The notes under the pieces were generated by a model, which was not told where the DNA came from, did not search any database, and saw only the letters and a program-made list of their open reading frames with translations. Shown here piece by piece: positions 4,215 through 48,275 of a stretch of DNA of 49,573 nucleotides. A program made the position numbers and the translations under genes. The DNA is taken from assembly GCA_030540075.1 (NCBI GenBank), contig JAUNWX010000004.1, positions 26,229-75,801 of the forward strand, read 5' to 3'. The DNA comes from Lachnospiraceae bacterium (GTDB lineage: Bacteria; Bacillota; Clostridia; Lachnospirales; Lachnospiraceae). The stretch's first letter is position 1, and each line of letters starts with the position of its first letter.

Positions 4215-5582
4215 TCACTCGCAGATCCGAAAATACAGGCTGCTGTACGGTGCCAGTGTCGGCAGGTTCATCACATCCGCTTCCGGCGCGATGCTGTCGA
4301 GCTGCATGCGCTTCGCGTCGTCCTTATAGTCCCACGGCTCCGCCTGCGCAGCGAACACGAGGCCGTCGTAGTCCTCCGGTACATACGCGACGTAGCTCTT
4401 CGTGAGCACCTGCGCCCAGTCACCGACGTTGTACTGCCAGTCGGTGGAGTACGCAAATTCGATCTGCTCGCTCACGCCATCCCGGTTGATCGTGTGCAGG
4501 TAGTAGTTCTCCCCACGCTCCGTGGCGCCGTAGGCTGTCGCCGCCGTCAGCCACATGCCGGTGTAGTAGTCGTACAGCTCGCTGCTCGTGACGGTGATGT
4601 AATCCTGCGGGAACACCGTGATCGCCCCCTGCGGGATGTAGCAGATTGCGTCAAACTGCAGCTCCCGGATGCCGTCATGCGTCTGATCGTACTTCTTCGT
4701 CACCTCCCAGTAGCAGTCGCCGCGGTTGTAGCCCTCGCCGAGCCCCACATAGCTCGACACGCCGCCCTCCAGCAGGTAGGTGCCCTGGTCGACCCGCCCC
4801 TCGATATCGAGGCCATTCCGCTCGAAGTACGCCGCCTGCGACCGGATCTCCTCCACCGGAAGCAGCGCCCCACCGGTGAGGATATCCATAAGTTCACCGC
4901 TCTCGCTCCGGTCAAAGTACATCGCCTCATCACTGCCGGCATACTCCAGCGTCAGCCCGTCCTCATCCACGAGCAGCGTGCCGTACTCGATGACCTCGTC
5001 CTGATCGTTCACGAACTCCCAGGTCCCGTCGTCGTGGACACGCAGCCACCTGTTCGCGCCCACATACTCCCAGAGGCCAATGTAATCGGCCAGCAGATCG
5101 TCATTTTCCGGCTCGGTGACGACGTCCGCTACGTAGACATTAGACAACGCCGGCTGATAAACGTAGCCATCCGCCGCGTCCCAGTACCACACGAGATTGC
5201 TGTGCGTCATGTCCGGGTGCTGCAGGAAAAGCTCCACATCCGTCTGCCCGTCGCCGTCGAAATCATCGAAGGTGAACTCGACACCGCAGTCGCCGATCTC
5301 CGGAAATTCCTCCGGAAAGTTCACGCTGTCGACCACCTCCGGTTCAAACTGGTCCCGGAAGAACGCCGCGCTCATCGGGTCCACCGTCGCCAGCACCGTG
5401 ATGCTCTCCCCGTCCCGCACGATCGTGCCCTTGCCGACCACCACCCCGGTCGTCCGCCAGTCCTCCCCCGCGACATCCTCGCTCTTTGTGTCGTCGGTGG
5501 TGTCCGTACTGCCGCCACAGCCCGCGAGCATGAGGCACAGCACCGCCACGCCGATCAGCCCATATCTCTTCCACTTCTTCAT
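4215..5582 (-). CDS. Lipoprotein of unknown function (paralogue A)
   Basis: 455 residues from ATG 5582, which opens a signal peptide MKKWKRYGLIGVAVLCLML ending in the lipobox LAGC; the mature protein should be lipid-anchored at the outer membrane face. An upstream in-frame start at 5627 would bury the signal and is rejected. The mature part is acidic and aromatic-rich (W, Y), with WEYVGANRW and GDGQTDVELF; the latter recalls calcium-binding-like acidic loops. I do not recognise the domain. Signal peptide, 5' leader and upstream hairpin array closely match those of the next gene, so the pair arose by tandem duplication. Confidence 0.8.
   Translation of the reverse strand: MKKWKRYGLIGVAVLCLMLAGCGGSTDTTDDTKSEDVAGEDWRTTGVVVGKGTIVRDGESITVLATVDPMSAAFFRDQFEPEVVDSVNFPEEFPEIGDCGVEFTFDDFDGDGQTDVELFLQHPDMTHSNLVWYWDAADGYVYQPALSNVYVADVVTEPENDDLLADYIGLWEYVGANRWLRVHDDGTWEFVNDQDEVIEYGTLLVDEDGLTLEYAGSDEAMYFDRSESGELMDILTGGALLPVEEIRSQAAYFERNGLDIEGRVDQGTYLLEGGVSSYVGLGEGYNRGDCYWEVTKKYDQTHDGIRELQFDAICYIPQGAITVFPQDYITVTSSELYDYYTGMWLTAATAYGATERGENYYLHTINRDGVSEQIEFAYSTDWQYNVGDWAQVLTKSYVAYVPEDYDGLVFAAQAEPWDYKDDAKRMQLDSIAPEADVMNLPTLAPYSSLYFRICE
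5075..5091 (-). repeat. 17-bp GGCCGNNNRCATTGGCC motif, exact copy, in lipoprotein A
   Basis: GGCCAATGTAATCGGCC on the plus strand. Encodes part of DYIGLW on the minus strand. See the finding on the dispersed motif. Confidence 0.7.
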
Positions 5583-5663
5583 CGTCCCCTCACTTTCCAC
5601 TCCCTCATGAAGTACTCGCTCATTCAACAGTTCCTGATCCAGACCTCAATTTCTCATCCTTAT

Positions 5664-5763
5664 AGGCATGGTAAGCTCCAAAAATCATCTTCATGCCTAC
5701 AGCGAGAATGTCTGGAAATTTCAATCGTAGGCATGGCACTCATTTTTCTGCCTCATCATGCCT
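5664..5763. repeat. Two paired AGGCATG/CATGCCT inverted repeats
   Basis: AGGCATG starts at 5664 and 5729; CATGCCT starts at 5692 and 5757. Each pair has 28-nt start-to-start spacing and the pairs are 65 nt apart. The spacer contains CTGGAAATTTCAATCGT, which recurs in the second array. It occupies most of the gap between lipoprotein genes A and B and just reaches gene B's 3' end. Confidence 0.85.
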
Positions 5764-5769
5764 GCTGCT

Positions 5770-6994: not shown

Positions 6995-7011
6995 GGCCAA
7001 TGCAGTCGGCC
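6995..7011 (-). repeat. 17-bp GGCCGNNNRCATTGGCC motif, exact copy, intergenic
   Basis: GGCCAATGCAGTCGGCC on the plus strand, ending 3 bp before the stop codon of the lipoprotein gene at 7014. Confidence 0.7.
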
Positions 7012-7013: not shown

Positions 7014-8609
7014 TCATGCCGCCTCATCCGTGAGGTATAATTCCCCGAAGATGTCCTGTGCGATACCGTCCATGTCTTCTGCGGCGTCCATATCCGTGCA
7101 GACGCCGTAAAGGTAGGTGTACTGGTCGGTGTCCATCGCAAAGACGGTCCACTTCACGCTATCTTCGTTCGCGCCGGTCGTGAACTCCACGATATAGACC
7201 GGATACGAGAATTTCTCTGTCAGTTTCGCGTCCTGCGTGATCGAGCGCAGCTCGTAGATGTCCGTTTCATCGAGCTTCCGCGCGCAGTCGACGAGGTACT
7301 GCTCGAGATCATCGCTCTCCATATCTGCGTCCTTCGCAAGGACGGTGTTCACAAGCATGGTCAGTCCATCCGCCGTGATATCCGCGTAGCAGTAGGTTCC
7401 GTCCGCATAATTATCCTCGCGTACCGTCTCCATCCCGGTGAACGGCAGGGCCCCGCCCATCAGGACCGGGATCGTCGCGCTGTCCGCCGCCTGGTCCGCC
7501 GGAATCAGATCTCCGCGGCCATCCTCCGAAGCTTCTGCTGCCCTGGCCGCCAAGGTTCGATTCTCCAGGCCAGCATCTGCTCCGTCCGCCGCCGAATTCT
7601 CGCTGCCATCCGCTGCCTGATCTTCCGGGATCAGGTCCCCGCGGCCATCGCCCGGCCAGTCCGTGCCCCAGACCGCCGCCGGGTCATATGGCGTCTCCGG
7701 CCACTCCGGCGCAAACGCCTGCCCGGCTTCATCATAGGCCATGCCATCGTCCGCCAGGGTATATCCGGCCGGCACTGCGAACTCGTGGACGCCATCGCTG
7801 TACCAGAGACGGCCATCCGCCTCCCGGAAACCTGCATTGGCCGGATCCGCGTACTGCGCCATCGCCCCGTTCCGATAGAACACGCCGGTGCTCCGCGCAT
7901 CCGTATCGCGCGCCGCGCCGCCATCCGGGAAGAGCACGAAGCTGTTTCCGTCCGCGCTGAGGCACGGGTAGAGGATCTCGGCACCACCGAGGAAGAGCCC
8001 GCGCCCATCCTCCTTGTCGTACATGTCGCCTCTGCTCATGACGCCGATCGGGTCACTCTCCGCGACCTTCATCGCCGCCGTATCGAAGACATACGAGTAG
8101 CCGCGCGCGTTCTGCCACTCGCCATCCAGCACGCTCCGGTCGAACGCCGTCATCTCCTCCGCCGCCGGATCGAAATGCCGCTCATTCAGCTCGCCCCACT
8201 CGCCGCCGGACTCCCCGTTCACGTGGTACGGCATCAGACCGCCCTCGTCCTCGAGGAGGTAATAATCGTTTTCGCCGTCGAGGTCCCCGTAGATCAGCAC
8301 GAGGTCCTCGTCGTCATGCTCGAGACTGCCCGTGCCGACCCGCCCGTACCAGGTCCGGTAACTGTAGCTCCCCGCCGGCAGATTCAGCAGGAGCTGCCCG
8401 CCGTCCGCCGCCACCCAGCTCGTCACATCCGCCTCGAAATCCGCGTCCTCCAGCAGCTTCCCCATCCCGCGGGATGCGCTCGTCGTCTCCGTAGCGGTCT
8501 CGCTGTCTCCACCTGTCCCGCGTCCAATGTCTCCGCCGCATGCGCAGATGGCGAGGGCGGTCAGCAGTGTCCCCAGAAGGACTGTGTATCGTTTCCCGTT
8601 CTTCCTCAT
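7014..8609 (-). CDS. Large lipoprotein of unknown function with GRGDLIP repeats
   Basis: 531 residues from ATG 8609, preceded by AAGGAGAGGATT; longer upstream frames would precede the signal peptide and are rejected. MRKNGKRYTVLLGTLLTALAI leads to the lipobox CAC. The N-terminal two thirds is acidic and beta-rich. A linker (about residues 370-415) carries two copies of DGRGDLIP(E/A)DQAADS separated by an Ala-rich stretch. The last 140 residues look like a separate alpha/beta domain (YCYADITADGLTMLV, FSYPVYIVEF, WTVFAMDTDQY). Third lipoprotein in a row; the neighbourhood suggests a surface-protein cluster. Function unknown. Confidence 0.8.
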   Translation of the reverse strand: MRKNGKRYTVLLGTLLTALAICACGGDIGRGTGGDSETATETTSASRGMGKLLEDADFEADVTSWVAADGGQLLLNLPAGSYSYRTWYGRVGTGSLEHDDEDLVLIYGDLDGENDYYLLEDEGGLMPYHVNGESGGEWGELNERHFDPAAEEMTAFDRSVLDGEWQNARGYSYVFDTAAMKVAESDPIGVMSRGDMYDKEDGRGLFLGGAEILYPCLSADGNSFVLFPDGGAARDTDARSTGVFYRNGAMAQYADPANAGFREADGRLWYSDGVHEFAVPAGYTLADDGMAYDEAGQAFAPEWPETPYDPAAVWGTDWPGDGRGDLIPEDQAADGSENSAADGADAGLENRTLAARAAEASEDGRGDLIPADQAADSATIPVLMGGALPFTGMETVREDNYADGTYCYADITADGLTMLVNTVLAKDADMESDDLEQYLVDCARKLDETDIYELRSITQDAKLTEKFSYPVYIVEFTTGANEDSVKWTVFAMDTDQYTYLYGVCTDMDAAEDMDGIAQDIFGELYLTDEAA

Positions 8610-8734
8610 AATCCTCTCCTTTTCCACATGGGCCGTTTTCTTTCTCGTATGCATCGTGTTCTTTTCATTTTCAGATGCACCGTGACCGCATGCTCTGTTT
8701 TCTCTCCTTATTCGGATGCACCGTTTTTCCCGTG

Positions 8735-8974
8735 TCAATGCTCCTGCTCCGCCATCGTCAGGATCTCGTCGTGACTCAGCTCCACATCGCCGAAGCGGAC
8801 GAAGATGCCGTTCGTCACCGCGCTGCGCCACACCGCGGGATCGACCAGCGGGCGGAAGCGGATCTTGTCGAGATAGGGCTTCATGTCGAGCAGAAGCCGG
8901 CTTCCGGACACATAATCGACCTGCAGCACATAATCATCGAGCGGTGAAACCGCCGTAAGATACCTTCGGTTCAC
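8735..8974 (-). CDS. DUF2442 domain protein
   Basis: 79 residues starting at GTG 8974, with GGAGG 8-10 nt upstream. The sequence LDDYVLQVDYVSG, the LLLDMKPYL segment and the GIFVRFGDVELSHDEI ending fit the DUF2442 family, small proteins often found near DUF4160 proteins. The family's molecular role is not established; it has been seen in toxin-antitoxin-like contexts, but no DUF4160 partner is present here. It lies upstream of the GRGDLIP lipoprotein on the same strand, 125 nt away. Confidence 0.75.
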   Translation of the reverse strand: MNRRYLTAVSPLDDYVLQVDYVSGSRLLLDMKPYLDKIRFRPLVDPAVWRSAVTNGIFVRFGDVELSHDEILTMAEQEH

Positions 8975-9212: not shown

Positions 9213-11810
9213 TTAAGTCTTCTGCCCGAGCAGCTTCGCGAGCTGCGCGCGTTTCGTGCGGGTGTCGCCTTCGATATGAAGCTTGGCGTAGATCTGGTTG
9301 ACATATTGCTTGACGCTGCCTTCGGAGAGGAAGAGCTGCGCCGCGATTTCGCGGTTCGAGAGGCGCTCCGCCATCCGCTGCACGATCTCGAACTCACGCT
9401 CGGTCAGCACCTCGAACGCGGCCGGCCGCCGCCCCGCTGCATGCCGCTCTGCCGCGGCGTCACCCAGTGCGAGAATCTGCTCGATGAGGGGCGTGACGAT
9501 CTCCCGTGAAAGCATTGGCCTGAGCAGCTGGAAGTTTTCCACAAACGGCATCGCGAAGCCGTCCGGCGCTGCGTCCGAGAGCGCCCGCGCAAGGCAGCTA
9601 TGTGCCTCCTCGGTTTTTCCGAGCTGTTCGTAGGCGATGGCGGTCTGGATCTGGATGTGGAGCGCGACGAGGGCGTAGTGCATGGCTTCACACAGCGCCA
9701 GCAGTTCCGCGCTCCGGGCGATGAGCTTCGCATACGCCGCCTGCGCGAGGTAGACCTGATTCTCGATCATCTCCATCATCGGCCGGCCCGGCGCCAGCAT
9801 ATTGATGTCGGAGAGCCGGTGCCGCGCGAAAATGTCCGGGATCTGCCCGAGCTCGCCCCGCAGCGCGTGATAATACGCGCTCGTCGCCGTCCAGATATTG
9901 ATCCAGGCCGCATCATGATAGCGCAGAAGCTCCGTATAACGCGCCTCCAGAGTGCCCCGCGTCGGCACATCCGCGAACAGCGAGAGCCGCCAGGCGAGGA
10001 AATCGCAGCAGAGGCCCATATTCACCTGCCCGTTGCCCTCGATCTGCGCGTACGCCCGCTCGAGCTCGATATGCGCATCCGTGAAGCGCCCCTGCATGTA
10101 CGCGGCCTCCGCCCGCATGATGGTCTCCGCGCCCTGGCCGTGGTTTCCTGTGATCCGGTAGTAGTGCGGCATGCACTCGTCCATCTCCGAAAGCTCCTGC
10201 TCGAGCTCCCCCGGCGCGCGGTAGAACATCATCAGCACCGATGGCGAGCCGAAGGTCCAGCCGCCGCTGTTCTGAATGCTGATCGCCGGCCGCGACATCT
10301 GCCGGCTGGCGCTCCGGTGCAGTCGGCTCATCGCGCTGATGTCGTTGTAGCAGAGGAAGCTCAGGATGAGGTCGCACTCGCCGAGCAGATTTCCCCTCTC
10401 CTCCTCGGACAGCTCCGGATGCTCCTCGATGGCGCCGAGCAGCAGTGCCTTCAGTTCCATCATCTTCGGGATCTGCCGCCAGGTGAACATGCGCCGCATC
10501 AGTACGAGCAGCGCGAAGGGATAGGATTTCAATGTCTCCGCCGGGCATCTGTCAAGTACCTCCAGGACATCCGCCGGCTTCAGGGAGGCGAGGAGGATGC
10601 CCGCATCACTGCGGATCACGCGGAGCAGGGCGTCGTAATCCTCGCTCTTCCGATACGCCGCGATGGCGTGGATGTACTGCTTTTCTTTTTCGTACCAGGC
10701 ACCGTAGCGCGTCCAGTAGAGATGCTGCGACGCTTCGCTCATCTTATGGAAGCGGCGCTCCGCACACTCCTTCATCATATGGTGGAAACGGTAGCTCACC
10801 CCATCCGGCAGACGCGTGACGAAGGCATTCTGCTCGGTCAGCATAGCGACGATCTGCCCCGCCTCCGCATCACCCGTGACGTAACGCGCCATCTCGACCG
10901 TGAATTCATCCGCGAGGCCCATGACCGCGAGAAACGCCTGCTGCTTCTCCGGCAGCGGATCGATCATCGCCTCCGAGAAGGTCGTGTAGATGTCGGAGTG
11001 CCGGCTCGGCAGCACGCCGTGCTCGGAAAATGTCCGAAGGTTCAGGTACACCGCCGAGAACCAGCCCTCGCTCGAATACAGCAGGGTCTCGACCTCCGCA
11101 TCCGAGAGATCCGTGCCACAACGATGCGCGTAGATTGCGAGCTCCGTGTGGTTGAGGCGCAGCTGCTCCGTCCCGATCTGGTACACCTTCGCTCCGAGCC
11201 GCACCGCTTCCGCCGCCGGCAGGAAACGATCGCGACTCGCCACGATCAGATGCACATTGGCCGGCAGACGATGCGCCAGCATGCACAGAAAAATCGAGGC
11301 CCGCCGATCCGTCAGCAGGTGGAAATCATCGATGAAAATAAAGCAGGACGTCTCGCCCGCGAGCGCATGGCACAGATCATCCACCAGGAGCCCCGCGCCC
11401 GCTGCATCGCTCGGACAGCTGTAGTCCCGGAGGAAATCCAGGCCGGCGCGCGCGAAGGCGTCCTGCACACTTCTCCATAAAATCGCAAGATTATCAGAAT
11501 AAACACTGATGCGGATGACGATCGGGGTCTCGCGTAAAGCTCGACCGGACGTTTCCATACCGGCGCGCGGTGATCGAGCAGACGCATCTGCTCGGACGCG
11601 CTCTGACAAATCGGCCTGCGCATCGCGCGCAGCCCGACCGGAGCCCTCCACACGGGCACGCTCTGCGAGATACCAGTTCACCGCCGTCGTCTTCCCATAG
11701 CCCATCGGCGCCACCACCGTCGTCATCGCACAGCGGGAAATCGGCCGCAGACTCTCCTGCAGCCGCTCGGAAATGTAAATCGTATTCAGGTTCCACTTCG
11801 GCTTCGGCAT
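9213..11810 (-). CDS. MalT/LAL-type LuxR-family ATPase transcriptional regulator
   Basis: 865 residues. A Walker A (APMGYGKTTA, about 34-43) in a STAND-type NTPase domain, a long alpha-helical TPR-like middle, and a C-terminal LuxR helix-turn-helix (LTEREFEIVQRMAERLSN...NREIAAQLF, GSVKQYVNQIYAKL) give the architecture of large ATP-binding LuxR activators that sense small ligands. GGGAGGCGTCT precedes ATG 11810. An Arg/Ala/Ser-rich stretch of about 45 residues (about 51-95) directly after the Walker A helix looks inserted; it contains a hairpin-forming GAGCAGATGCGTCTGCTC. No obvious adjacent target operon; the upstream EF-hand-like gene is on the same strand 50 nt away. The ligand cannot be read from sequence. 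Confidence 0.9.
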   Translation of the reverse strand: MPKPKWNLNTIYISERLQESLRPISRCAMTTVVAPMGYGKTTAVNWYLAERARVEGSGRAARDAQADLSERVRADASARSPRAGMETSGRALRETPIVIRISVYSDNLAILWRSVQDAFARAGLDFLRDYSCPSDAAGAGLLVDDLCHALAGETSCFIFIDDFHLLTDRRASIFLCMLAHRLPANVHLIVASRDRFLPAAEAVRLGAKVYQIGTEQLRLNHTELAIYAHRCGTDLSDAEVETLLYSSEGWFSAVYLNLRTFSEHGVLPSRHSDIYTTFSEAMIDPLPEKQQAFLAVMGLADEFTVEMARYVTGDAEAGQIVAMLTEQNAFVTRLPDGVSYRFHHMMKECAERRFHKMSEASQHLYWTRYGAWYEKEKQYIHAIAAYRKSEDYDALLRVIRSDAGILLASLKPADVLEVLDRCPAETLKSYPFALLVLMRRMFTWRQIPKMMELKALLLGAIEEHPELSEEERGNLLGECDLILSFLCYNDISAMSRLHRSASRQMSRPAISIQNSGGWTFGSPSVLMMFYRAPGELEQELSEMDECMPHYYRITGNHGQGAETIMRAEAAYMQGRFTDAHIELERAYAQIEGNGQVNMGLCCDFLAWRLSLFADVPTRGTLEARYTELLRYHDAAWINIWTATSAYYHALRGELGQIPDIFARHRLSDINMLAPGRPMMEMIENQVYLAQAAYAKLIARSAELLALCEAMHYALVALHIQIQTAIAYEQLGKTEEAHSCLARALSDAAPDGFAMPFVENFQLLRPMLSREIVTPLIEQILALGDAAAERHAAGRRPAAFEVLTEREFEIVQRMAERLSNREIAAQLFLSEGSVKQYVNQIYAKLHIEGDTRTKRAQLAKLLGQKT

Positions 11811-12959: not shown

Positions 12960-12973
12960 ACACATTAATGTCG

Positions 12974-13606: not shown

Positions 13607-13619
13607 CGGATCTTCCTCC

Positions 13620-14756: not shown

Positions 14757-15881
14757 TTACTTCAGATACTCTCCGAGCATCTCCTTCACACACGCTTCGA
14801 TCTGTTCGATGATATTTTCGCAGCGTTCCTTTTTCATCCCCGCCTGGATGCCTACCGCGAGCAGTTCCTTCCTGCCTGGATTTCGCCCATTTCCATCCAC
14901 CGTTGTCGTATGCTCACCATAATATGTATTACTGTAGGTCAGGTCATAGGCCGGGCTCAGATGCCAGCGGTCATTTGCTTCATCGTACAGATATGTGAAG
15001 TTTTTCGAGTGGTCATCCCGGTTGTGGGCGTAGACATTGAAACACATACGCCGAAACATGTTTTCCAGATCGAGTGGATGATCTCTGGTCAGAATCTTCG
15101 TAAGCTTCATCATGCTATGGTAATCCAGGCTCGGCTGCTCAAAATCCAGCTCCAGCAGCGCAGCGGCAGTCAGCATATGTACTCGTTTCCCGCCTTTCTC
15201 TCGATCGAAGCGTCGGATGCCGAAGTATCCCTTGCACTTATCGGATGGAAACAGTCGGGTTTCGCTCATCTCAATTCCGCACTCTCTGGCACAGCAGGAA
15301 TAATCAAATTCCATCTTTCCTGCATCCCTGCCATCTACATGCGCAGGAAATTTGATCATCCACTCTTCCTGATCGATCGTGGTCAGGATTTTTGGTCGCG
15401 CACCACCACTCGTACCACCTAAGCAGTAGAGTTCATCCAGTTTATCCGAGTATTCCGTATTCAGGATTTTCTCACATTCTTCTGCCAGCTCATCCAGGGC
15501 AACATGCTCGTAATTCTGTTCATAGCTTTTCTCCGGATAGTAGGTCAATGCTCCCATTCCGGACTTTCCGACGATGGCCAGACGATCCAGAACCGTCAGT
15601 TTATCCGTGTTCTGCCGATGTGCACGGAGCAGGCGGTTCAAAAGCAGCCTGCCCCAGTTATCCGGAAGGCTATCTGCGAACACGCCAAACAGTCCGTCGA
15701 AATAATCTTTCGATGGAATAAAAACCTGACTTTTCAGAGGGAGTGAAAACGGACTGATCGAAAATCCCTTTTCCAGCCATTCATCACTATATTGAAAGGC
15801 CACCTTATAGTCTGCCGTCATTGCGAGTGTCCCGACGAATCGATCTGCATAGTACACCCGCAGCGCATTATCTTCTCTCAT
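14757..15881 (-). CDS. hipA: HipA-family serine/threonine kinase toxin
   Basis: 374 residues. The N-terminal subdomain (about 1-110) has FSLPLKSQ, FADSLPDNWGRLLLNR and a KSGMGAL loop. A glycine-rich GGTSGGARPK (155-164) fits the HipA ATP/phosphoregulation loop, IKFP (176-179) carries the ATP-contacting lysine, HNRDDHSKNF (286-295) has the catalytic Asp/Asn, and SPAYDLT (309-315) corresponds to the DFG-like metal site. HipA toxins phosphorylate targets such as glutamyl-tRNA synthetase and cause growth arrest; this target is not tested here. Overlaps hipB by 14 nt, typical of coupled antitoxin-toxin translation. All key motifs are intact. Confidence 0.92.
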   Translation of the reverse strand: MREDNALRVYYADRFVGTLAMTADYKVAFQYSDEWLEKGFSISPFSLPLKSQVFIPSKDYFDGLFGVFADSLPDNWGRLLLNRLLRAHRQNTDKLTVLDRLAIVGKSGMGALTYYPEKSYEQNYEHVALDELAEECEKILNTEYSDKLDELYCLGGTSGGARPKILTTIDQEEWMIKFPAHVDGRDAGKMEFDYSCCARECGIEMSETRLFPSDKCKGYFGIRRFDREKGGKRVHMLTAAALLELDFEQPSLDYHSMMKLTKILTRDHPLDLENMFRRMCFNVYAHNRDDHSKNFTYLYDEANDRWHLSPAYDLTYSNTYYGEHTTTVDGNGRNPGRKELLAVGIQAGMKKERCENIIEQIEACVKEMLGEYLK

Positions 15882-16485: not shown

Positions 16486-17193
16486 TCAGTCTTCAGAATC
16501 CTTATCCTCTTCTTCGTTCGAATCTCCATCCGTTTCAGAATCCTCGAAATCATCTTCCGCATCGTCGAGGTCGTCAAAGTCATCGAAATCCTCATCTTCG
16601 AACTCATCCTCGTCCTCGAACTCATCGAACTCCTCATCCTCGTACTCGTCCGTGTCCTCATCCTCCGGGTCCATGAAGATCGACTCGTAGTATCCAGCGG
16701 TTTCGAAGCCGTCGTCCTCATGCTCGTCGAGGAACCAGTCCATGAGCTCCGTCATCTCGTCGTGGCGGCCGTCGAAACGGTCACGCACATAGAACAGCGA
16801 CAGGATATCTTCGCTGAGTTCCATCCCCGGGATCTTATTATGGAAGGTCTCGAGCAGCGTCCACAGCGGCACCATATCGTCGTAGCAGATGTCCATGATC
16901 AGCACATCCATCTTATCCGGATTGTAATAGCAGTGAATCGTATCGCCGACACTGTCCTCGCCGAACAGATCCATGAACGCCTGCCGGATCGCCTTCGCGC
17001 TCATATCGTCCGCATCATTCAGATACTGCCGCGGATCCTCGATCGTCACCTGGTAGTGATCGAACTCCTCGTTCTTCAGCTCGAGAAACTCCAGCGTATC
17101 CGCCAGCGCCGTCTCGACCGTCACGTTGTTCTGCTCCGCGTACGAACGCAGAATATTGATATACTCATCTGGGAATTCCAGCTTTACACTCAT
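16486..17193 (-). CDS. Unknown protein with a very acidic C-terminal tail
   Basis: 235 residues from ATG 17193 (AGAGGTGTGAAG upstream); a longer frame to 17247 lacks a ribosome site. The N-terminus MSVKLEFPDEYINILRSYAE resembles a short ribbon-helix-helix or RHH-like segment, then a globular middle (IHCYYNPDKMDVLIMDICYD). The last 65 residues are mostly Asp and Glu with regularly spaced Phe (EFDEFEDEDEFEDEDFDDFD). Such tails can mimic DNA or chaperone basic partners. No family recognised. Probably last gene of the 19116-16486 operon. Confidence 0.7.
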   Translation of the reverse strand: MSVKLEFPDEYINILRSYAEQNNVTVETALADTLEFLELKNEEFDHYQVTIEDPRQYLNDADDMSAKAIRQAFMDLFGEDSVGDTIHCYYNPDKMDVLIMDICYDDMVPLWTLLETFHNKIPGMELSEDILSLFYVRDRFDGRHDEMTELMDWFLDEHEDDGFETAGYYESIFMDPEDEDTDEYEDEEFDEFEDEDEFEDEDFDDFDDLDDAEDDFEDSETDGDSNEEEDKDSED

Positions 17194-17216
17194 CTTCACA
17201 CCTCTATCTCTTATTT

Positions 17217-17233
17217 TGCCAATGCCGTCGGCC
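17217..17233 (-). repeat. 17-bp motif, near-exact copy (16/17), intergenic
   Basis: TGCCAATGCCGTCGGCC on the plus strand, in the 92-bp gap between the acidic-protein gene and the 96-aa gene. Confidence 0.65.
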
Positions 17234-17285
17234 GCAGCCATCGTCACTTCGCGGCACTTTATGGGGCAGCCCTCATGACCGCCGG

Positions 17286-19145: not shown

Positions 19146-19162
19146 GGCCAATGCATCCGGCC
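19146..19162 (-). repeat. 17-bp GGCCGNNNRCATTGGCC motif, exact copy, intergenic
   Basis: GGCCAATGCATCCGGCC on the plus strand, in the 111-bp gap between the six-helix protein and the Lon-like ATPase. Flanked by TTTTC as at 21539. Confidence 0.7.
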
Positions 19163-23993: not shown

Positions 23994-24064
23994 ACCGCTC
24001 CTCTTTTTTTCTGCCGGTTTCATGTGCCTGTTCTCATCGTCAGGCTTCCTGCCGGATACGCATT

Positions 24065-31742: not shown

Positions 31743-31759
31743 CGCCAATGCAGACGACC
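31743..31759 (-). repeat. 17-bp motif, degenerate copy (15/17), intergenic
   Basis: CGCCAATGCAGACGACC on the plus strand, upstream of degV. The 314-bp gap 31699-32012 otherwise holds the promoter of the DUF1836 gene and AT-rich DNA. Confidence 0.5.
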
Positions 31760-34850: not shown

Positions 34851-36395
34851 CTACTTTCTGATACGCTGGCTCTCCTCCGTCATCCGCCGGATCTTCTCCG
34901 CGCATTCCTTCGAAAAATCTTCCTCTATAAAACGGAAGGTCCAGTTCTGTCCGAGCGTCGACGGCGTGTTGATGCGCGCCTCCGACCCCAGGCCGAGGTA
35001 ATCCTGCATCGGGATGATGGCGGTCTCCGGCTTCGCCGCGAGCGTCATCTGAATCAGCGCATCGGTGTAGTCCGACTGAAGGAAGTCTCTCGTCACGCTG
35101 CGGTCCTCGGCGATCTCCGCCTCCGGACGCGGACGCACGTTCACTTCCTCTCCCTTCCCCTGCTTCCACGCAGTATAATACCGAATCGCGAAATCACGGT
35201 CAACCGGAGATATCTCACGCACCCACGCAGCCAGCGTCTGATTGTCGTGTGTACCCGTATAGCAGACAGCATTGGTCGGCCAGGTGCACGGACGATAATC
35301 CCCGCTCTCGCGCGAATCAAAGCCGAACTCGAGCAGCTTCATACCCGGGTAGCCCGTGTCCTCCACGAGCTTCCGCACCGTGTCGGTCACATAGCCGAGG
35401 TCCTCCGCGATAATCCGCTTTTCTCCGAGCGCCGCCTTCAGCGCGTTGAAGAGGTCAATGCCGGGGCCCTTTTCCCAGTGCCCACCCGTCGCATCGCTCG
35501 CGCCCGCCGGGATGGCGTAATACTCATCGAAGCCGCGGAAATGATCGACCCGCACCACATCGAAGAGATCGAAGCAGCGGCGCATCCGCGCGATCCACCA
35601 GTGGTAGCCCGTCTCCTTATGGTAGGCCCAGTCATAGACCGGATTGCCCCAGAGCTGACCGGTCGCCGAGAAGCTGTCCGGCGGGCAGCCCGCGACCTGC
35701 TTCGGCTGGCCCTCCTCATCGAGCTGGAACAGCTCCGGATGCTCCGTGAAATCCACGGAATCGCTCGATACATAGATCGGAATATCGCCGATGATGGCGA
35801 TGCCCTTCTCGTTCGCATAGGCCCGCAGGCGCTTCCACTGCCTGTCAAACTCGTACTGCGTGAAACGGTAGAAATCCTCCGGATAGTCCGTCTTCGCAGC
35901 CATGAACTGCGCGTACGCCGGCAGCCAGTGCACCGTGTGCCGGATGAACTGACGATACGCCTCCTTCTCCTCCGCGTCGGGCGCGACATTGCCCTCCCCG
36001 CTCGTCCGCTCCTCGAAACGCCCGAAGGCCTTCAGGAGCAGCGGGAAGCGACCGAGATACAGCTTCTCATAGCTGATCTTCGAAGCATCCGCCCCGAAAT
36101 CCACCGCGTCGCACTCCTCGCGCGTCAGCAGCTCCTCATCGATCAGCGTCTCCAGATCGATGAAATACGGATTGCCCGCGAAGGTCGAGAAGCTCTGATA
36201 CGGCGAATCGCCATAGCCCGTCGGCCCGATCGGAAGCACCTGCCAGTAGGTCTGCCCGCTCTCCGCGAGGAAATCCACGAAGCCGTAGGCCTCCTTTCCG
36301 AGTGTTCCGATGCCGTAGGCACCTGGAAGAGCGAACACCGGCATCAGAATCCCTGCTGCTCTCCCCCAGATGCGCTCCCTTGCTTCCTTTTCCAT
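34851..36395 (-). CDS. malQ: 4-alpha-glucanotransferase
   Basis: 514 residues from ATG 36395 (GGAAGGGAAAACGT upstream; the frame stays open to 36464 without a site). GH77 disproportionating enzyme that shuffles maltodextrins and releases glucose. PVFALPGAYGIG, YWQVLPIGPTGYGDSPYQSF and GNPYFIDLE at the N-terminus, VRVDHFRGFDEYYAIP with the nucleophile Asp, EDLGYVTDTVRKL with the acid/base Glu and TGTHDNQTLAAW with the third Asp are all present. Follows malG after a 105-nt gap that contains an inverted repeat (ATCCATTTC/GAAATGGAT). Confidence 0.96.
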   Translation of the reverse strand: MEKEARERIWGRAAGILMPVFALPGAYGIGTLGKEAYGFVDFLAESGQTYWQVLPIGPTGYGDSPYQSFSTFAGNPYFIDLETLIDEELLTREECDAVDFGADASKISYEKLYLGRFPLLLKAFGRFEERTSGEGNVAPDAEEKEAYRQFIRHTVHWLPAYAQFMAAKTDYPEDFYRFTQYEFDRQWKRLRAYANEKGIAIIGDIPIYVSSDSVDFTEHPELFQLDEEGQPKQVAGCPPDSFSATGQLWGNPVYDWAYHKETGYHWWIARMRRCFDLFDVVRVDHFRGFDEYYAIPAGASDATGGHWEKGPGIDLFNALKAALGEKRIIAEDLGYVTDTVRKLVEDTGYPGMKLLEFGFDSRESGDYRPCTWPTNAVCYTGTHDNQTLAAWVREISPVDRDFAIRYYTAWKQGKGEEVNVRPRPEAEIAEDRSVTRDFLQSDYTDALIQMTLAAKPETAIIPMQDYLGLGSEARINTPSTLGQNWTFRFIEEDFSKECAEKIRRMTEESQRIRK

Positions 36396-36435
36396 ACGTT
36401 TTCCCTTCCAGTCATATATTTCATCCATTTCCCCC

Positions 36436-36452
36436 GGCCAATGTCTCCGGCT
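36436..36452 (-). repeat. 17-bp motif, near-exact copy (16/17), malG-malQ gap
   Basis: GGCCAATGTCTCCGGCT on the plus strand. It lies in the loop of the ATCCATTTC/GAAATGGAT inverted repeat between malG and malQ. Confidence 0.65.
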
Positions 36453-36500
36453 TCCGTCTGACATCGCCCGGAAATGGATATAAATCGTTCTAAAGTCTGA

Positions 36501-40042: not shown

Positions 40043-42304
40043 TCACTTTCCGAGATGCCAGATATCCCGATCATACTCCGCGATGGTCCGATCCGAGGAG
40101 AACAGGCCGGCCTTCGCGATGTTCACGAGGCACTTCCGGCGCCAGCCCTGCGGATCGCAGGCGTAATCACTGAGCGCCTGGTTCTTGCGCACGATGTAGG
40201 CATTGAAATCCGGAAGCGTCTGGAACCAGTCCTTATGGATGAGCTCGTCGTGGAGACGGCAGAGGTTTCCGGCATGGCCGGCGGCGAGCATCTCCGGGCC
40301 GGTCAGGAAGTCGATCGCACGACGGATGTTCGGGTCGCCCTCATACCACTGCTGTGCGATGTAGTCCCCCGCAGCGTAGCGGTGGATGACCTGATCCGAG
40401 GTCTGGCCGAAGATGTAGACATTGTCCTCGCCGACCTGCTGCGCGATCTCGACGTTCGCGCCGTCCATGGTACCGAGCGTCAGCGCGCCGTTCAGCATGA
40501 ACTTCATGTTGCCGGTGCCGGACGCCTCCTTCGACGCGAGACTGATCTGCTCCGAGAGGTCGCAGGCCGGAATCAGCTTTTCCGCTGCGGTCACGTTGTA
40601 GTTCTCGATGAAGACCACCTGCAGCCACTTCGACACGACCGGATCCGCCGCAATCACCTTCGACAGCACGAGCAGCGCATGGATGATGTCCTTCGCGATG
40701 ATGTACGCCGGGGCCGCCTTCGCGCCGAAGATGCTGACGAGCGGAGTCGCCGGCAGATGGCCCGCCTTGATCTCGTGGTACTGGTGGATGAGGTAGAGCA
40801 GGTTCAGCTGCTGTCGCTTGTACTCGTGGAGACGCTTCGACTGGATGTCGAACATCGCGCCCGTGTCCACCGTCACGCCCTGGGTCCGGCGGAGCCAGTC
40901 GGCCAATGCCTCCTTATTCTCGCTCTTCACTTCGCGGAGCTCTTCCAGCACCGCTGCGTCATCCGCGAAAGCCATCATCTTCTCGAGCTCGGACGCATCC
41001 TTGCGGAAGCCCGTGCCGATGTGCTTCTCGAGCACCGCCGTAAGGCGCGGATCGCACTCCAGGAGCCAGCGACGGAAGGTGATGCCGTTCGTCTTGTTAT
41101 TGAACTTCTCCGGGTAGAGCTCGTAGAAGTTATGGAGCTCGGAGTTCTTCAGGATCTCCGTGTGCAGCGCTGCCACACCGTTCGTGGAATGCGTGAAATG
41201 GATGTCCATATGCGCCATGTGGACGACATCATCCTCGTCAATGATGGCGAGCGACGCATCCTCCGAGCGGGTCCGTGCCAGTGCGTCGAGCTTCTCGATG
41301 ATCGGCATCAGCTGCGGCACGACCGCGTCGAGGTACGCGCGCGGCCACTTCTCGAGGGCCTCCGCGAGGATTGTATGATTCGTATAAGCGCAGGTCTTCG
41401 CCACGATCTCCACGGCCTCCTCGAAGTCGATGCCGTGCTCGCCGAGCAGGCGGATGAGCTCCGGGATGACCATACTCGGGTGCGTGTCGTTGATCTGGAT
41501 CGCCGCGTAGTCCGCGAGATCATGGTAGTCACAGCCACGGGCCGCACACTCCGCGAGGATCAGCTGCGCGCCGGCGGACACCATCAGATACTGCTGGTAG
41601 ATACGGAGACGACGGCCGGCCTCGTCGGAATCGTCCGGGTAGAGGAACAGCGTCAGGTTCTCGTCGATGGCGGTCTTGTCGAAGGCGATGCCGTCATGCA
41701 CGATGCTCTCGTCGATGGTATCGAGGTCGAAGAGGTTCAGGGTGTTCGTTCGGCCCTCGTAGCCGGTCACGGCGAGCTTATAGAGACGTGCGGTATACGG
41801 CTTGCCTGCGAGCTCCACCGGATAGGTCACGTCGGTCTTCTCCGCCCAGCTGTGCGCGGTCAGCCATGGGTCCGGCTTCTCGTTCTGGATATCCCCCTCG
41901 AAGGACTGGTGGAACAGTCCGAAGTGGTAGCGGAGGCCAATGCCGTCGCCCGGCAGGTTCAGTGTCGCAAGCGAATCCAGGAAGCAGGCTGCGAGACGGC
42001 CGAGACCGCCGTTGCCGAGGGATGGCTCCGGCTCGACCTCTTCGATGTCGGACATGCTCTTTCCGACCGCCGCCAGCGCGTCACGCACCTCCTCGTACAG
42101 CCCGAGGTTGATGAGATTATTTGACAGCAGCTTTCCGATCAGGAACTCCGCACTGATATAGTAGAGCTTACGGCCATGCACCGGCTTCACACGCTCCGCA
42201 CTCTTCGCCCGCACCAGCTCCAGCAGCGCGAGGTACAGCTCCTGATCACTGCAGTCCTTCAGTGCCTTCCCACTCAGCTTCTCTAACGTCTCTGTGATAT
42301 TCAT
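40043..42304 (-). CDS. glgP: Glycogen/maltodextrin phosphorylase
   Basis: 753 residues. Phosphorolyses alpha-1,4-glucans to glucose 1-phosphate. The protein begins close to the catalytic core ([39 protein letters not shown]), which is the short bacterial form. [20 protein letters not shown] carries the PLP lysine, and [19 protein letters not shown] follows. AAAGGAGGATCTT precedes ATG 42304. Next to the malE operon but separated by its own terminator, and divergent from an AraC regulator that may control it. Together with MalQ it completes maltodextrin breakdown. Confidence 0.96.
41935..41951 (-). repeat. 17-bp motif, near-exact copy (16/17), in glgP
   Basis: GGCCAATGCCGTCGCCC on the plus strand; encodes part of GIGLR on the minus strand. 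Confidence 0.6.
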
Positions 42305-44481: not shown

Positions 44482-45006
44482 CTACTCCTCTTCGTCCCCG
44501 AAGATGTGATCGGTGCCGCGCTCGAGGGCGGTGATGCCGGTCCGGCACATCTCGAGCACCTCGTAGTTCCGCATCATGTTGAGGAAGCCCTCGACCTTCT
44601 CCGGCTTACCGGTGAGCTCCATGACGAGGCTGTCCGGGGAGAGGTCGATGATCTTCGCCTTATAGACCCCGGCGATGTCACGGAGGCTCGGCAGATTATC
44701 CTTATCCGCACGGACCTTGATGAGCAGGAGCTCGCGCTGCACACTCGCCGTCGCAAGCTCATACACCTCACGCACATCCTCGAGTCGCCGTGTCTGGAGG
44801 AGCAGCTGCTTCAGCTTCTGCTCGTCGACATGGACCGTGATCGTGATCCGCGCGATGCCCGGATCCATCGTCTCTGAGGTCGTGATGCTGTCGATATTGA
44901 AGCTCCGGCGGTTAAACATATTCGAGATCCGCGCCAGCACGCCGTAGCGGTTCACCGCCAGGATGCTGATGACCCTGCGGGGATACTTATACTGATTTTC
45001 CATCAT
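44482..45006 (-). CDS. ilvN: Acetolactate synthase small (regulatory) subunit
   Basis: 174 residues. An N-terminal ACT domain (about 11-85: ISILAVNRYGVLARISNMFN, RRSFNIDSITTSET) binds valine for feedback inhibition, and the C-terminal domain (SLRDIAGVYKAKIIDLSPDS) is complete as in long-form IlvN. The start codon overlaps the ilvB stop by ATGA, so equal synthesis of the two subunits is likely. A second ATG directly follows the first (45003). Confidence 0.96.
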   Translation of the reverse strand: MMENQYKYPRRVISILAVNRYGVLARISNMFNRRSFNIDSITTSETMDPGIARITITVHVDEQKLKQLLLQTRRLEDVREVYELATASVQRELLLIKVRADKDNLPSLRDIAGVYKAKIIDLSPDSLVMELTGKPEKVEGFLNMMRNYEVLEMCRTGITALERGTDHIFGDEEE

Positions 45007-46691
45007 ACCTGCCCCCTTTCGTCGTCGGACATCGTGATATCCTGCACCGTGCCTCCCGGCGGAATCATTGGCAGCACCTTCTCATCCTTATCGATGCGGC
45101 ACTCGATCCAGCTCGGGCCCGGGTTGGTCAATGCTTCTGCCATGGCTGCACGGAACTCCGCCATGGTTTCACAGCGGTAGCCCTTCGCGCCGAAGCCCTC
45201 GGCGAGCTTCACATAGTCGGTCTTCCGCTCCGGATCGGTGCTCGAATAGCGCTTGCCGTAGAAGGCCGTCTGCCACTGGCGCACCATACCGAGCACCTGG
45301 TTGTTGAAGATGATCGTGATGATCGGAAGCTCGTAGCTCACCGCCGTACACGCCTCGTTCAGATTCATATGGAAGGAACCGTCACCCGTGAAATGGATCA
45401 CGCGATGCCCGTTACCAAGCGCCACCTGGGCACCGATCGCGGCGCCGTAGCCGTAGCCCATGGTGCCGAGACCACCGCTCGTCAGGAAGCCGCGTGGCTT
45501 CGTGTGGAGCACGTACTGTGCCGCCCACATCTGATGCTGGCCGACATCGGTGACGTAGGTCGTGTCCGGGCCGGTCATCTCGCATGTCTCACGGATGATC
45601 TGGTGCGGCTTCAGGACGGTCTCGCTGTCCTTCGGCTGATAGTCGGCCGCCTGCCACTCCGCGATCTGGGCGAACCAGTCCGGATGGTCGACCGCATTGA
45701 CCAGCGGAAGCAGCGCCTGCAGTACGACCGCCGCATCGCCGACCACCGAAGCGTCGACGAGGACGTTCTTATCCACCTCACTGGCATCGATATCAATCTG
45801 CACGATCTTCGCACCCGCGGCGAACTTCTCTGGATTCAGTGCAACACGATCCGAGAAACGCGCGCCGACCGCCAGCACGAGATCCGCCTGGTCGACCGCC
45901 TTGTTCGCGGTGTAGGTGCCATGCATGCCGATGAGACCGAGGTTCCGCTTATCCCCGTAGTTCAAGACGCCCGCGGCCATCAGCGTATAGGTCGCCGGCA
46001 TGTCCGCCTTCGCGATGAGATCGCGGAGTGCCTGACAGCTCGCCTCGCTGACCGCGACACCGCCTCCGAAATAGACCACCGGACGCGTCGCCTGGTTGAT
46101 GAGCTCGGCGGCCCGCGCGAGATCCTCTGCGTCAACCTCCGTATTCACCGGAATCTCCGCCGGCTTCTTCGGCGTAAACTCACAGCTCGCCGCCGTGATG
46201 TCCTTCGGGATATCCACGAGCACCGGTCCCTTACGCCCGCTCTGTGCGATACGGAACGCCTCCCGCATCGTATCCGCGAGGTCCTCGACCCGGCGCACGG
46301 TGTAGTTGTGCTTCGTGATCGGCATCGTGATACCCTCGATATACGCCTCCTGGAAGGCATCGCGACCTAAGACCGCGGTACCGACATTGCCCGTAAAGGC
46401 CACCATCGGCACGTTATCCATGTAGGCCGTCGCGATACCGGTGACGAGGTTCGTCGCACCCGGACCGCTGGTCGCCAGCACGACGCCCGTCTTGCCGGTC
46501 GCCCGCGCATAGCCGTCCGCCGCGTGGCTCGCACCTTGCTCGTGCGCCGTCATGATGTGGTGGATGCGATCCTGGTTACGGTACAGCTCATCGTAGAGGT
46601 TCAGCACCGCACCACCCGGATAACCGAACAGTGTATCGACGCCCTGCTCCACCAGCACTTCTACAAATATCTGAGAGCCATTTAAAATCAT
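45003..46691 (-). CDS. ilvB: Acetolactate synthase large (catalytic) subunit
   Basis: 562 residues from ATG 46691 (GAGGAGGAAACAGTCC upstream; the frame runs to 46757 without a site). ThDP enzyme: FGYPGGAVLNLYDELYR, the catalytic Glu in TAHEQGASHAADGYARATGK, ATSGPGATNLVTGIATAYMD, and the ThDP/Mg GDGSFHMNLNEACTAV motif near residue 430. FAD-site segments are present. Condenses pyruvate with pyruvate or 2-oxobutyrate. Between ilvN and a DUF815 ATPase. No T-box is visible in the 146 bp upstream. Confidence 0.97.
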   Translation of the reverse strand: MILNGSQIFVEVLVEQGVDTLFGYPGGAVLNLYDELYRNQDRIHHIMTAHEQGASHAADGYARATGKTGVVLATSGPGATNLVTGIATAYMDNVPMVAFTGNVGTAVLGRDAFQEAYIEGITMPITKHNYTVRRVEDLADTMREAFRIAQSGRKGPVLVDIPKDITAASCEFTPKKPAEIPVNTEVDAEDLARAAELINQATRPVVYFGGGVAVSEASCQALRDLIAKADMPATYTLMAAGVLNYGDKRNLGLIGMHGTYTANKAVDQADLVLAVGARFSDRVALNPEKFAAGAKIVQIDIDASEVDKNVLVDASVVGDAAVVLQALLPLVNAVDHPDWFAQIAEWQAADYQPKDSETVLKPHQIIRETCEMTGPDTTYVTDVGQHQMWAAQYVLHTKPRGFLTSGGLGTMGYGYGAAIGAQVALGNGHRVIHFTGDGSFHMNLNEACTAVSYELPIITIIFNNQVLGMVRQWQTAFYGKRYSSTDPERKTDYVKLAEGFGAKGYRCETMAEFRAAMAEALTNPGPSWIECRIDKDEKVLPMIPPGGTVQDITMSDDERGQV

Positions 46692-46837
46692 GGACTGTTT
46701 CCTCCTCTTCCACCGCTCCCTCGCGGTTCCTGTTTCATCTATCGTCTGTCCTCGCATCAGGCGAGAACGCTGTTTTTCACTTCATCCGGCACGCCCTGCG
46801 CCGCTCGATCCGCGGCTCCCCGGTGCCCCATCTTCAC

Positions 46838-48031
46838 TCAGCTCAACACGCCTGCTTTACATAATTCTATGAACTGCTTCGCAACACGCGGGCTTCGTCC
46901 GCCGGCGCGGATCGCGAAGGCCTCCGCCCGCACGATCAGCTTCTCCGGATCGTCCTCCACGCCGTACTGTGCGGCGAGGTCCGTGACGATCTGCACGAAG
47001 CGGCTCTTGTCCGGCTGCCCGAAGGTCACCGTGAGGCCGAAGCGCGCCGCGAGGCTCATCAGCTCCTGGCGCGTATCGCTTTCGTGGATGTCGCTGCCCT
47101 GCCGGTCCTCGAGCGTCTCCTTGATGAGATGCCGCCGGTTGCTCGTCGCGTATACCGCGATGTTGCCGGCGCGACCCCCGACGCTTCCCTCGAGGATGGC
47201 CTTCAGCGCGGCGAAGTTATCGTCGTTCGTCGTGAAGCTGAGGTCATCGATAAACAGGATGAACTTCAGCGGGTTCGCCGCGAGCTGATCCATGAGATCC
47301 GGGATCTGGTAGAGCTGATTCTTCTTCACCTCGACCAGGCGCAGGCCCCGCGCCGCATACTCGTTCGCGATGGCCTTGATGGCACTCGACTTGCCGGTGC
47401 CCGCATCGCCGTAGAGCAGCACGTTGTTCGCCGGACGTCCATCCAGCAGTGCCTCTGTGTTCACGATGACCTTCTCGCGCTCCTTCTCGTAGCCCGGCAG
47501 CTCGGACAGCCGCTGCGGATCCGGATGCTTCACCGGCACCAGCCGGCCATCCTCCACCACGAAGACGTGGTTCCGTGCGAACATACCGTAGCCCCTCGTG
47601 CTGACCTCCTGCATGCGCTTCGCATACTCCGCCGGCAGCGCGCCCGTCCCGGTGACCCACGCGACGAAGTAGTCCGGCGCGTCACTCATCTCGGCCGTCA
47701 GCTCTTCCAGGGTCAATGCAGAGAGCTCGTTCAGCAGTGCCAGCTCCCGCTGCAGACTGTCCCCGAGGACGGCACTGAGTTCGCCGTGGGCCTGTCGCTG
47801 CACGCAGATGTTCTCGCTCTCCAGCACCGCGGTGCTGAGGTACTCCGTCCAGTTCTCCGTCTTCTCAAACAGCCGGTGCTCGAACGCCGCACAGGCCGTG
47901 GCGAAGGCATCGCCATCGTCCAGCTCCGCGCTCTGCAGCATCTCACGAAACGCCGCGATCACCGGATCCTGCAGCAGCTCCCGGAACACGACGAGACTGC
48001 TTAGTCGCTGATACATATAATGCAGATTCAT
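46838..48031 (-). CDS. DUF815 family AAA+ ATPase
   Basis: 397 residues from ATG 48031. The N-terminal helical part (about 1-200) is followed by an ATPase domain with Walker A LLYGDAGTGKSSAIKAI (about 212-228), Walker B FILFIDDLSFTTNDDNF, and sensor/arginine region AVYATSNRRHLIKETLEDRQ. The family is widespread and lightly studied. It lies on the same strand between ilvA and ilvB and could be co-transcribed with either, although no pathway link is known. Start chosen for AAGGGAG upstream; the frame also reads from 48061. Confidence 0.9.
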   Translation of the reverse strand: MNLHYMYQRLSSLVVFRELLQDPVIAAFREMLQSAELDDGDAFATACAAFEHRLFEKTENWTEYLSTAVLESENICVQRQAHGELSAVLGDSLQRELALLNELSALTLEELTAEMSDAPDYFVAWVTGTGALPAEYAKRMQEVSTRGYGMFARNHVFVVEDGRLVPVKHPDPQRLSELPGYEKEREKVIVNTEALLDGRPANNVLLYGDAGTGKSSAIKAIANEYAARGLRLVEVKKNQLYQIPDLMDQLAANPLKFILFIDDLSFTTNDDNFAALKAILEGSVGGRAGNIAVYATSNRRHLIKETLEDRQGSDIHESDTRQELMSLAARFGLTVTFGQPDKSRFVQIVTDLAAQYGVEDDPEKLIVRAEAFAIRAGGRSPRVAKQFIELCKAGVLS

Positions 48032-48258
48032 CCTTCTCCACTCCCTTCTCTCTGATTCCATGAAGGGCGTTGCAAGGAGGATTCCTGTACAGCCCTTCGC
48101 TGAGCTTCTTGATTTTCTATTTTTGAACTGATTTTTCTGATTTCTTTCTAATCGGTTTCTGATTCACTTCATAATCCGTTTCGGGGATCTTTTTCTCAAA
48201 TGACCATCTCATTTACCCAACAGACTTACAGTCATCTGTGGGCTGCACGACGATGTCT

Positions 48259-48275
48259 CGTCGGAAGCATTGGCC
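48259..48275 (+). repeat. 17-bp motif, degenerate copy (15/17), downstream of ilvA
   Basis: CGTCGGAAGCATTGGCC, 5 bp before the end of ilvA on the minus strand. The 248-bp gap 48032-48279 otherwise shows no gene. Confidence 0.55.

Follow-up and report, generated by a model that had tools for sequence, protein, structure and literature searches.

Motif copies in the window and in the genome

The stretch of DNA analyzed here (in the following called the window) comprises 49,573 nt of contig C49 from a genome of 2.31 Mb in 69 contigs (G000), placed in the Lachnospiraceae because most of its named protein relatives belong to that family. Dispersed over its genes and the gaps between them, on both strands, lie copies of a 17-bp motif, first described in an earlier note from the letters of the window. 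We suggest, with a probability of about 40%, that this motif serves as a word by which DNA is recognized, passed on vertically and maintained at hundreds of sites, much like the DNA uptake sequences (DUS) of Neisseriaceae and the uptake signal sequences (USS) of Pasteurellaceae. The principal sites, several preceded by a short GAYGAT-like box, are as follows.

1582..1598, minus strand: one mismatch to the refined consensus GGYCGNNNRCATTGRCC; antisense within a MetH-like gene, 185..2935 (+)
5075..5091, minus strand: exact GGYCGNNNRCATTGRCC site; inside gene 4215..5627 (−), with a GACGAT box 5 nt upstream (5097-5102)
6995..7011, minus strand: exact site; intergenic, directly past the stop of 7014..8831 (−)
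9512..9519, plus strand: core RCATTGGC, preceded by a GACGAT box; given as 9504 in the extended set
17217..17233, minus strand: one-mismatch site with GACGAT 6 nt upstream (17240-17245); first codons of open reading frame (ORF) 16486..17247 (−) if GTG is the start, otherwise directly upstream of the gene
19146..19162, minus strand: exact site; between genes, 30 bp upstream of 18430..19116 (−), preceded by a GAGGAT box
20493..20509, minus strand: one-mismatch site within gene 19228..20802 (−); divergent to the 20541 site, half sites 55 bp apart
20541..20557, plus strand: exact site; antisense within gene 19228..20802 (−)
21539..21555, plus strand: exact GGYCG form (one mismatch to the GGCCG form of the earlier note); antisense within a CbiC-like gene, 20943..21731 (−)
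23711..23727, minus strand: exact site; within the cobyric acid synthase gene 22338..24080 (−)
31743..31759, minus strand: one mismatch to the GGYCG form; between genes, 45 bp upstream of 30868..31698 (−), preceded by GACGAT (31765-31770)
36436..36452, minus strand: one-mismatch site; within ORF 34851..36464 (−) (4-alpha-glucanotransferase) if the first ATG is the start, otherwise directly upstream
41935..41951, minus strand: one-mismatch site; within the glycogen phosphorylase gene 40043..42304 (−)
45686..45702, plus strand: exact GGTCG...CATTGACC form (two mismatches to the form of the earlier note); antisense within the acetolactate synthase gene 45003..46757 (−)
48259..48275, plus strand: one mismatch to the GGYCG form; between genes, separated by 5 bp from the stop of 48280..49485 (−), with a GACGAT box 4 nt upstream (48249-48254)

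All 11 sites of the earlier note were recovered with the mismatch numbers it gave relative to its word GGCCGNNNRCATTGGCC: exact at 5075, 6995, 19146, 20541 and 23711, one mismatch at 17217, 21539, 36436 and 41935, and two at 31743 and 48259. Five two-mismatch sites (1582, 2158, 2289, 22547 and 45686) come in addition. Allowing up to two mismatches, the window holds 16 copies against 0.91 expected, with a maximum of 4 in 100 shuffles. For the core RCATTGGC, a hand count of about 20 against roughly 3 expected was borne out (20 against 3.5, maximum 9 in 100 shuffles), while some of the hand-taken positions were off by up to about 11 bases.

The excess is not confined to the window. With at most one mismatch, GGYCGNNNRCATTGRCC, the better consensus, occurs 249 times in G000, compared with 3 occurrences of the reversed motif, which served as control. 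The exact word of the earlier note occurs 19 times (reversed control: 0), and 5 of these copies fall into the window, which makes up 2.1% of the genome and is thus denser than average. In a 450-kb sample of G000, consisting of the window and 400 kb from three contigs, GGCCAATGC was the most over-represented 9-mer (63 against 3.3 expected under a fourth-order Markov model). A CATT-anchored mixture model gave a usable consensus for G000 and for G001, a genome of the same genus, only; a soft mixture estimate of 1.1 sites per kb may include codon-phase background. Free expectation-maximization motif finding drifted into codon periodicity and was discarded. Site density climbs with local GC content, from 0.19 per kb below 48% to 0.48 per kb above 58% GC, a rise that composition alone might give, and site spacing resembles random placement (coefficient of variation 0.99). 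Another word, CCCTCCGGG, was also strongly over-represented in the sample (40 against 5.7).

In our reading of the copies, the shared sequence stops at GGCC on the 3′ side, and the 5′ side is looser. The NNN positions are constrained, the second being A or C only in 30 intergenic sites and C in 22 of 30 genic ones. A box GA[CTG]GAT was found 32 times in the 60 bases upstream of 147 sites, and 20 of these boxes start 9-12 bases ahead of the motif. Most copies are single: the pairs under 120 bp among 226 half sites were 3 convergent, 3 direct and 8 outward-facing ones, the last with 38-99 bp between them (5 in genes, 3 in gaps). In a few cases the similarity between copies extends over 36-46 bp (80-89% identity). 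We rejected an RNA hairpin, as the would-be pairing positions lack covariation in 66 exact genome sites (C3-G15 19, T3-A15 6, T3-G15 33, C3-A15 8). Fold energies (−29.6 kcal/mol intergenic, −29.2 genic, −18.7 control) were not used as evidence because the random intergenic control windows were not GC-matched.

The signal lies mainly in the DNA, because shuffling synonymous codons within genes (60 times in G000) strips away most of the excess: the one-mismatch form fell from 31 observed copies to 3.6 (standard deviation, sd, 1.9). For RCATTGGC, 88 observed copies compare with 20.0 after shuffling (sd 4.1), and for the reversed control 22 with 28.8. The claim of a DNA-level signal independent of codon usage thus held. 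Its companion claim, that genic copies lie in assorted frames, was wrong. Among the 95 genic sites of the 450-kb sample with at most two mismatches and CATT intact, the first motif base, read along the gene, sits at codon position 3 in 83 (56 antisense, 27 sense). This phase preference, together with copies in conserved peptides, could point to a protein-coding or codon-usage effect, with recurrent peptides such as ANAGD or DGIG. The copy at 41935..41951 may be explained by coding, because it encodes GDGIGL where the G001 DNA reads GDGVGL. As a general explanation, a coding effect is largely refuted by the synonymous shuffling and by the intergenic copies, which cannot be coding, and we regard it as very improbable. 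Many genic copies, judged by the encoded peptides, lie in low-complexity linkers.

Strand use is balanced (131 forward, 118 reverse in G000), and relative to the sign of local GC skew, 80 of the 147 sites of the sample run with it and 67 against it. With Chi/KOPS-type words, which are polar, the motif shares over-representation and species specificity; the absence of such polarity, noted before for the window, extends beyond it.

The intergenic excess seen in the window proved modest and dependent on the form of the motif. Compared with 15.8% of bases being intergenic, 24 of 91 copies of GGCCAATG are intergenic, while GGTCAATG, with 5 of 48, shows no excess. These counts are approximate, as genes were called by our own simple caller based on codon usage and ribosome-binding words, and some of the "intergenic" sites may in fact be genic where the caller missed a gene or its true start. 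Of 30 intergenic sites, 19 are oriented like the next gene and 11 opposite (12 and 6 within 60 bp of a gene), and many lie 17-48 bp ahead of a gene start. The orientation bias is too weak to claim a transcript-oriented element. Together with the DNA-level signal, its conservation (see below), the use of both strands and the intergenic excess of GGCCAATG, these positions would suit a chromosomal binding site of an accessory nucleoid or regulatory protein that is unrelated to uptake and drifts in specificity between species. However, most copies are genic, the orientation bias near starts is weak, the specificity shifts quickly and several species do without the word. We consider such a binding site possible, although on balance somewhat unlikely.

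Some further features of the window are recorded here. A search of Rfam at gathering thresholds gave no match in the window. The region of approximately 11861-16146 contains weakly scoring genes, among them one for a HipA-like protein (14757..15881), and no one-mismatch motif site; it is perhaps foreign DNA. Positions 32485-32546 are part of another dispersed repeat, with matches on contigs C33, C53, C65 and C67 and elsewhere on C49; they contain GGGGTCTGACCCCC, and a hairpin with a T-rich end follows them.

Dialects and turnover of sites within the genus

For comparison we used 17 genomes of the same genus (G000 to G016), 13 of them of good quality; G002, G003, G009 and G011 are less than 90% complete. 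The leading words of sibling species are related to the G000 word: TGTAGGCATT and TGTAAGCATT in G001, RCATTACC and ACATTGGC in G013, and CATTGGCA in G004. The diverged forms include TGTARRCATTR, RCATTACC and RCATTGGCA. Related words were not highly ranked in the sampled sequences of G005 and G008, and only weakly in G007. A codon-aware test with 30 shuffles per genome gave 28 copies of TGTARRCATT against 2.0 in G001, and an excess of RCATTRSC in G004 (62 against 24.5), G013 (88 against 28.6) and G010 (19 against 8.1). The same pattern was without clear excess in G005 (23 against 18.8), G007 (8 against 5.7) and G008 (18 against 20.7).

A dialect-neutral pattern was then counted in all 17 genomes, as observed:control. 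The highest values were found in G001 (276:20), G000 (203:18), G011 (231:25), G004 (249:38) and G013 (260:41), followed by G015 (190:30), G014 (193:35), G010 (190:36) and G009 (63:12). Lower were G016 (126:44), G002 (91:41), G006 (91:45) and G003 (38:19), and lowest G007 (22:13), G012 (65:39), G005 (25:20) and G008 (32:29). In a tree of the housekeeping ComM gene, covering 15 of the 17 genomes (G002 and G011 not included), the motif-poor genomes G003, G005, G006, G007, G008 and G012 form one supported group (100/99). The distribution of the motif looks vertical because the motif-poor genomes group together in this tree.

Turnover was followed between G004 and G013, which are 92-94% identical where aligned. 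Counted from both genomes, 35 of 38 strong sites were kept; of the 3 changed sites, 2 differ by substitution and 1 lies over a 6-bp gap. Fifteen indel regions between the two genomes contain GGGGACGG palindromes of the REPIN type (hairpin-forming pairs of repetitive extragenic palindromic, REP, sequences), and none of them holds the motif in its marked form. Two indel regions hold a shorter core within a stretch present in one species, namely AACATTGAGC in G004 only and ACATTGGC in a hairpin of G013 that is absent from G004.

Sites were also conserved more often than 13 scrambled control patterns, with a fraction of 32/42 (0.76) against 0.60 for G004 and G013, and of 21/30 (0.70) against 0.34, 16/30 (0.53) against 0.17 and 16/29 (0.55) against 0.24 for the pairs among G010, G014 and G015. 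In this test each conserved pair is counted from both sides, and control sites are few. Orthologues in G001, at 67-78% identity, yielded 12 alignments with several duplicates, too few to settle how sites originate.

The RAYT-ComM2-DprA2 operon

On contig C67 of G000, a gene for a REP-associated tyrosine transposase (RAYT, of the HUH type) of about 200 residues is followed by genes for an additional ComM and an additional DprA (ComM2 and DprA2); the RAYT and ComM2 genes overlap, end to start. Related loci were found as follows.

L244, G000 contig C67: RAYT-ComM2-DprA2, with a separate comM elsewhere in the genome
L246 and L247, G004 contig C10 and G013 contig C39: RAYT-ComM2-DprA2, with a separate comM elsewhere in each
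L245, G001 contig C11: RAYT-ComM2, no DprA detected, with a separate comM elsewhere

The complete operon is thus present in 3 of the 17 genomes, and a fourth has it with no DprA detected; each of these genomes is motif-rich. The RAYT of G000 scored 74.4 bits for NF047646, under the cut-off of 80, and 56 bits for Y1_Tnp (cut-off 23). Its profile aligns with the E. coli TnpA-REP structure (PDB 4er8; E=1e-6), and the alignment includes the HUH and tyrosine regions. In G000 (L244, upstream of 6881 (−)) and G001 (L245, upstream of 3545 (−)), the alignment with homologues runs upstream of the first ATG or GTG, which suggests that these RAYT genes use rare start codons.

RAYT beside ComM was also found in three genomes of other genera (G020, G115 and G167). 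The second ComM proteins form their own clade (100/100), in which G001 groups with G115, and G004 and G013 with G020 and G167; such mixing of genera is as expected for an exchanged module. Relatives of RAYT on plasmids (21 of 72,556 records) and phages (1 of 50,697 records) were all below 60% identity.

Two observations concern other RAYT genes of G004. A second copy (L251, contig C66) loses similarity past about 147 residues, where the sequence may resemble the end of a group II intron. L249 on contig C1, a longer RAYT that belongs to another type, has GGGGACGG palindromes on both flanks, so that an ordinary RAYT/REPIN arrangement exists in this genus too. We also tried IS200-type transposases as a cause of the motif and rejected them, as copies of 150-165 residues exist in motif-poor G008 and G012 as well.

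Among the 13 good-quality genomes, the four operon carriers have the highest dialect-neutral ratios, the last of them marginally (G013 260:41, G015 190:30). This invites the explanation that the motif is a REP-like repeat copied by RAYT, which would nick and move hairpin-forming single strands, with DprA and ComM aiding recombination. The operon composition in the four genomes, the alignment with 4er8, the 8 outward-facing pairs, the copies sharing 36-46 bp, and ACATTGGC and AACATTGAGC in their one-species stretches are consistent with it. However, about a quarter or fewer of the copies are intergenic and most are single. No core lies within 300 bp on either side of the G000 RAYT reading frame, the two nearest being located within the end of the frame and roughly 0.3 kb upstream of it, and the marked motif is absent from the 15 indel regions. 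G010 and G015 keep the motif without a detected RAYT, and the stretches sampled from G020 and G115 present the reverse case. We therefore consider a REP-like repeat unlikely. G001 differs in that the ribosome-binding region of its RAYT gene is overlapped by GTAAGCATTA, a core of its dialect, and a CAATGT lies just downstream.

The operon may also act differently, by gating single-stranded DNA that enters the cell or recombines; it would do so in a sequence-specific way, recognizing the word and driving it through the genome by substitution-level gene conversion. Self-recognition dialects would then have arisen in Firmicutes by a route other than the pilin-based DUS. This proposal appears slightly less probable still, and we offer it as speculation. 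More simply, we treat the operon as a lead and a possible accessory partner, not as the cause. A simple link from operon to motif is weakened because two cross-genus RAYT carriers, G020 and G115, lack a comparable word in the sampled stretches; likewise, none was found in 140 kb of G222, which has a close RAYT and no ComM detected beside it. In G014, only a RAYT fragment of 39 residues was found; it lies where a contig ends and shares 92% identity with the RAYT of G013. G011 is motif-rich (231:25), yet in this genome of below 90% completeness only a partial RAYT of another type and no ComM were found.

A possible uptake-like word and its relation to known systems

Of the three options raised by the earlier note, an uptake-like word fits best because of the species dialects, the positions in linkers and gaps, and the conservation above that of scrambled patterns. 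A very short selfish repeat is weakened because two of the three changed sites are substitutions and the 15 indel regions lack the marked motif; the third option, a nucleoid or regulator site, keeps the standing given above. In an uptake-like system, copies would be kept by selection at the DNA level or by biased recombination (molecular drive), and new sites would appear mainly by base substitution at tolerant places such as protein linkers and gaps between genes. DNA bearing the word would be favored in uptake or recombination, so that sites are retained or spread, and as the recognizing protein changes, the word would drift into species dialects. The recognizer would presumably have its role during transformation or recombination, and a possible accessory partner is the RAYT(HUH)-ComM2-DprA2 operon of motif-rich genomes.

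Several results weigh against an uptake-like word or against a part for the operon. With 249 one-mismatch copies in 2.31 Mb, the motif is far sparser than classical DUS, and we know of no DUS with a variably spaced upstream box like GAYGAT. The conservation test comprises few sites, three of its four pairs fall within the clade of G010, G014 and G015 and are non-independent, and the difference is smallest in the operon-carrying pair, G004 and G013. The codon model has its flaws, as in the codon-aware dialect test the reversed control was depleted in G000 (64 against 113.3), G005 (6 against 16.4) and G010 (10 against 21.1). Even in motif-poor G007, the G000 form with one mismatch allowed was found 13 times, compared with 0 for the control. 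The association of operon and motif is not significant (4 of 9 motif-rich against 0 of 6 motif-poor among 15 genomes of the genus; Fisher p = 0.09) and is confounded by phylogeny. RAYT was not found in motif-rich G010 and G015. Conversely, G020 and G115 both carry RAYT beside ComM, and 160 kb of the former and 98 kb of the latter yielded no comparable word. ComEC (PF03772), whose detection in 15 of the 17 genomes and all 13 good-quality ones would suit an uptake-like word, is equally present in motif-poor species.

To our knowledge, species-specific DNA self words have been described in a few Gram-negative groups only. If a dialect-forming word holds in Lachnospiraceae, it would provide a handle on partners of DNA exchange in the gut and on the evolution of such words, for which motif-rich and motif-poor species within one genus are a natural comparison. 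The RAYT-ComM2-DprA2 arrangement is of interest in itself, as two natural-transformation proteins are encoded here next to a domesticated transposase. In the literature searched, we found no paper combining REPIN and RAYT with Firmicutes, RAYT with comM, or "tyrosine transposase" with DprA; papers on Lachnospiraceae and "overrepresented motif" concerned, by their titles, transcription starts or promoters only. As far as searched, the exact word is undescribed, in line with the earlier note, although elements of its kind, DUS/USS dialects and HIP1, are known.

Measured by the definitions in PMC3116915 and PMC8266576, the motif resembles REP/REPIN elements in that a RAYT-family gene occurs in the genome and some copies form inverted pairs able to fold into hairpins. 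It differs in not being predominantly extragenic (24/91 for GGCCAATG and 5/48 for GGTCAATG), in not consisting mostly of inverted doublets (8 divergent among 226 half sites) and in the cores not flanking the RAYT gene of G000, a trait that is not uniform, as G001 differs. In addition, insertions of the full form were not seen between G004 and G013, where two shorter cores do lie in stretches that one species lacks. The word was also not found in what was sampled of two genera outside this one, G020 and G115, in which RAYT adjoins ComM. Membership in REP/REPIN thus fails on extragenic position, doublets and RAYT flanking.

The HIP1 element of cyanobacteria is likewise a highly iterated short word; it is a short perfect palindrome linked with methyltransferases (PMC4390886), unlike the long and degenerate word with dialects found here. 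A HIP1-like word that owes its frequency to an orphan DNA methyltransferase, or to biased mutation or repair, would give a similar picture of a very frequent word in genes and gaps that is missing in some relatives. The motif is, however, only partly palindromic, besides being long and degenerate, and has a positioned GAYGAT box, and we assign this explanation a small chance. HIP1 is a weaker analogue than the DUS dialects.

In PMC3630211, DUS are described with dialects, permissive positions and inverted intergenic pairs, and classical DUS number thousands per genome. Our motif shares with DUS and USS the form of a dispersed, non-polar word in genes and gaps on both strands (249 against 3; 131/118). 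As in DUS, there are species dialects with a common core (G000, G001, G004, G013), permissive positions and absence from some relatives. Some inverted pairs exist too; here their number is small, and they are no less common in genes (5 of 8) than in gaps (3 of 8). Unlike DUS and USS, it occurs in a Firmicutes host, is longer and degenerate, has an upstream box and, with 249 copies in 2.31 Mb, stays below their density of nearly 1 per kb (thousands of copies). Without claiming membership, we would see in the DUS and USS dialects the closest known kind to the word described here.

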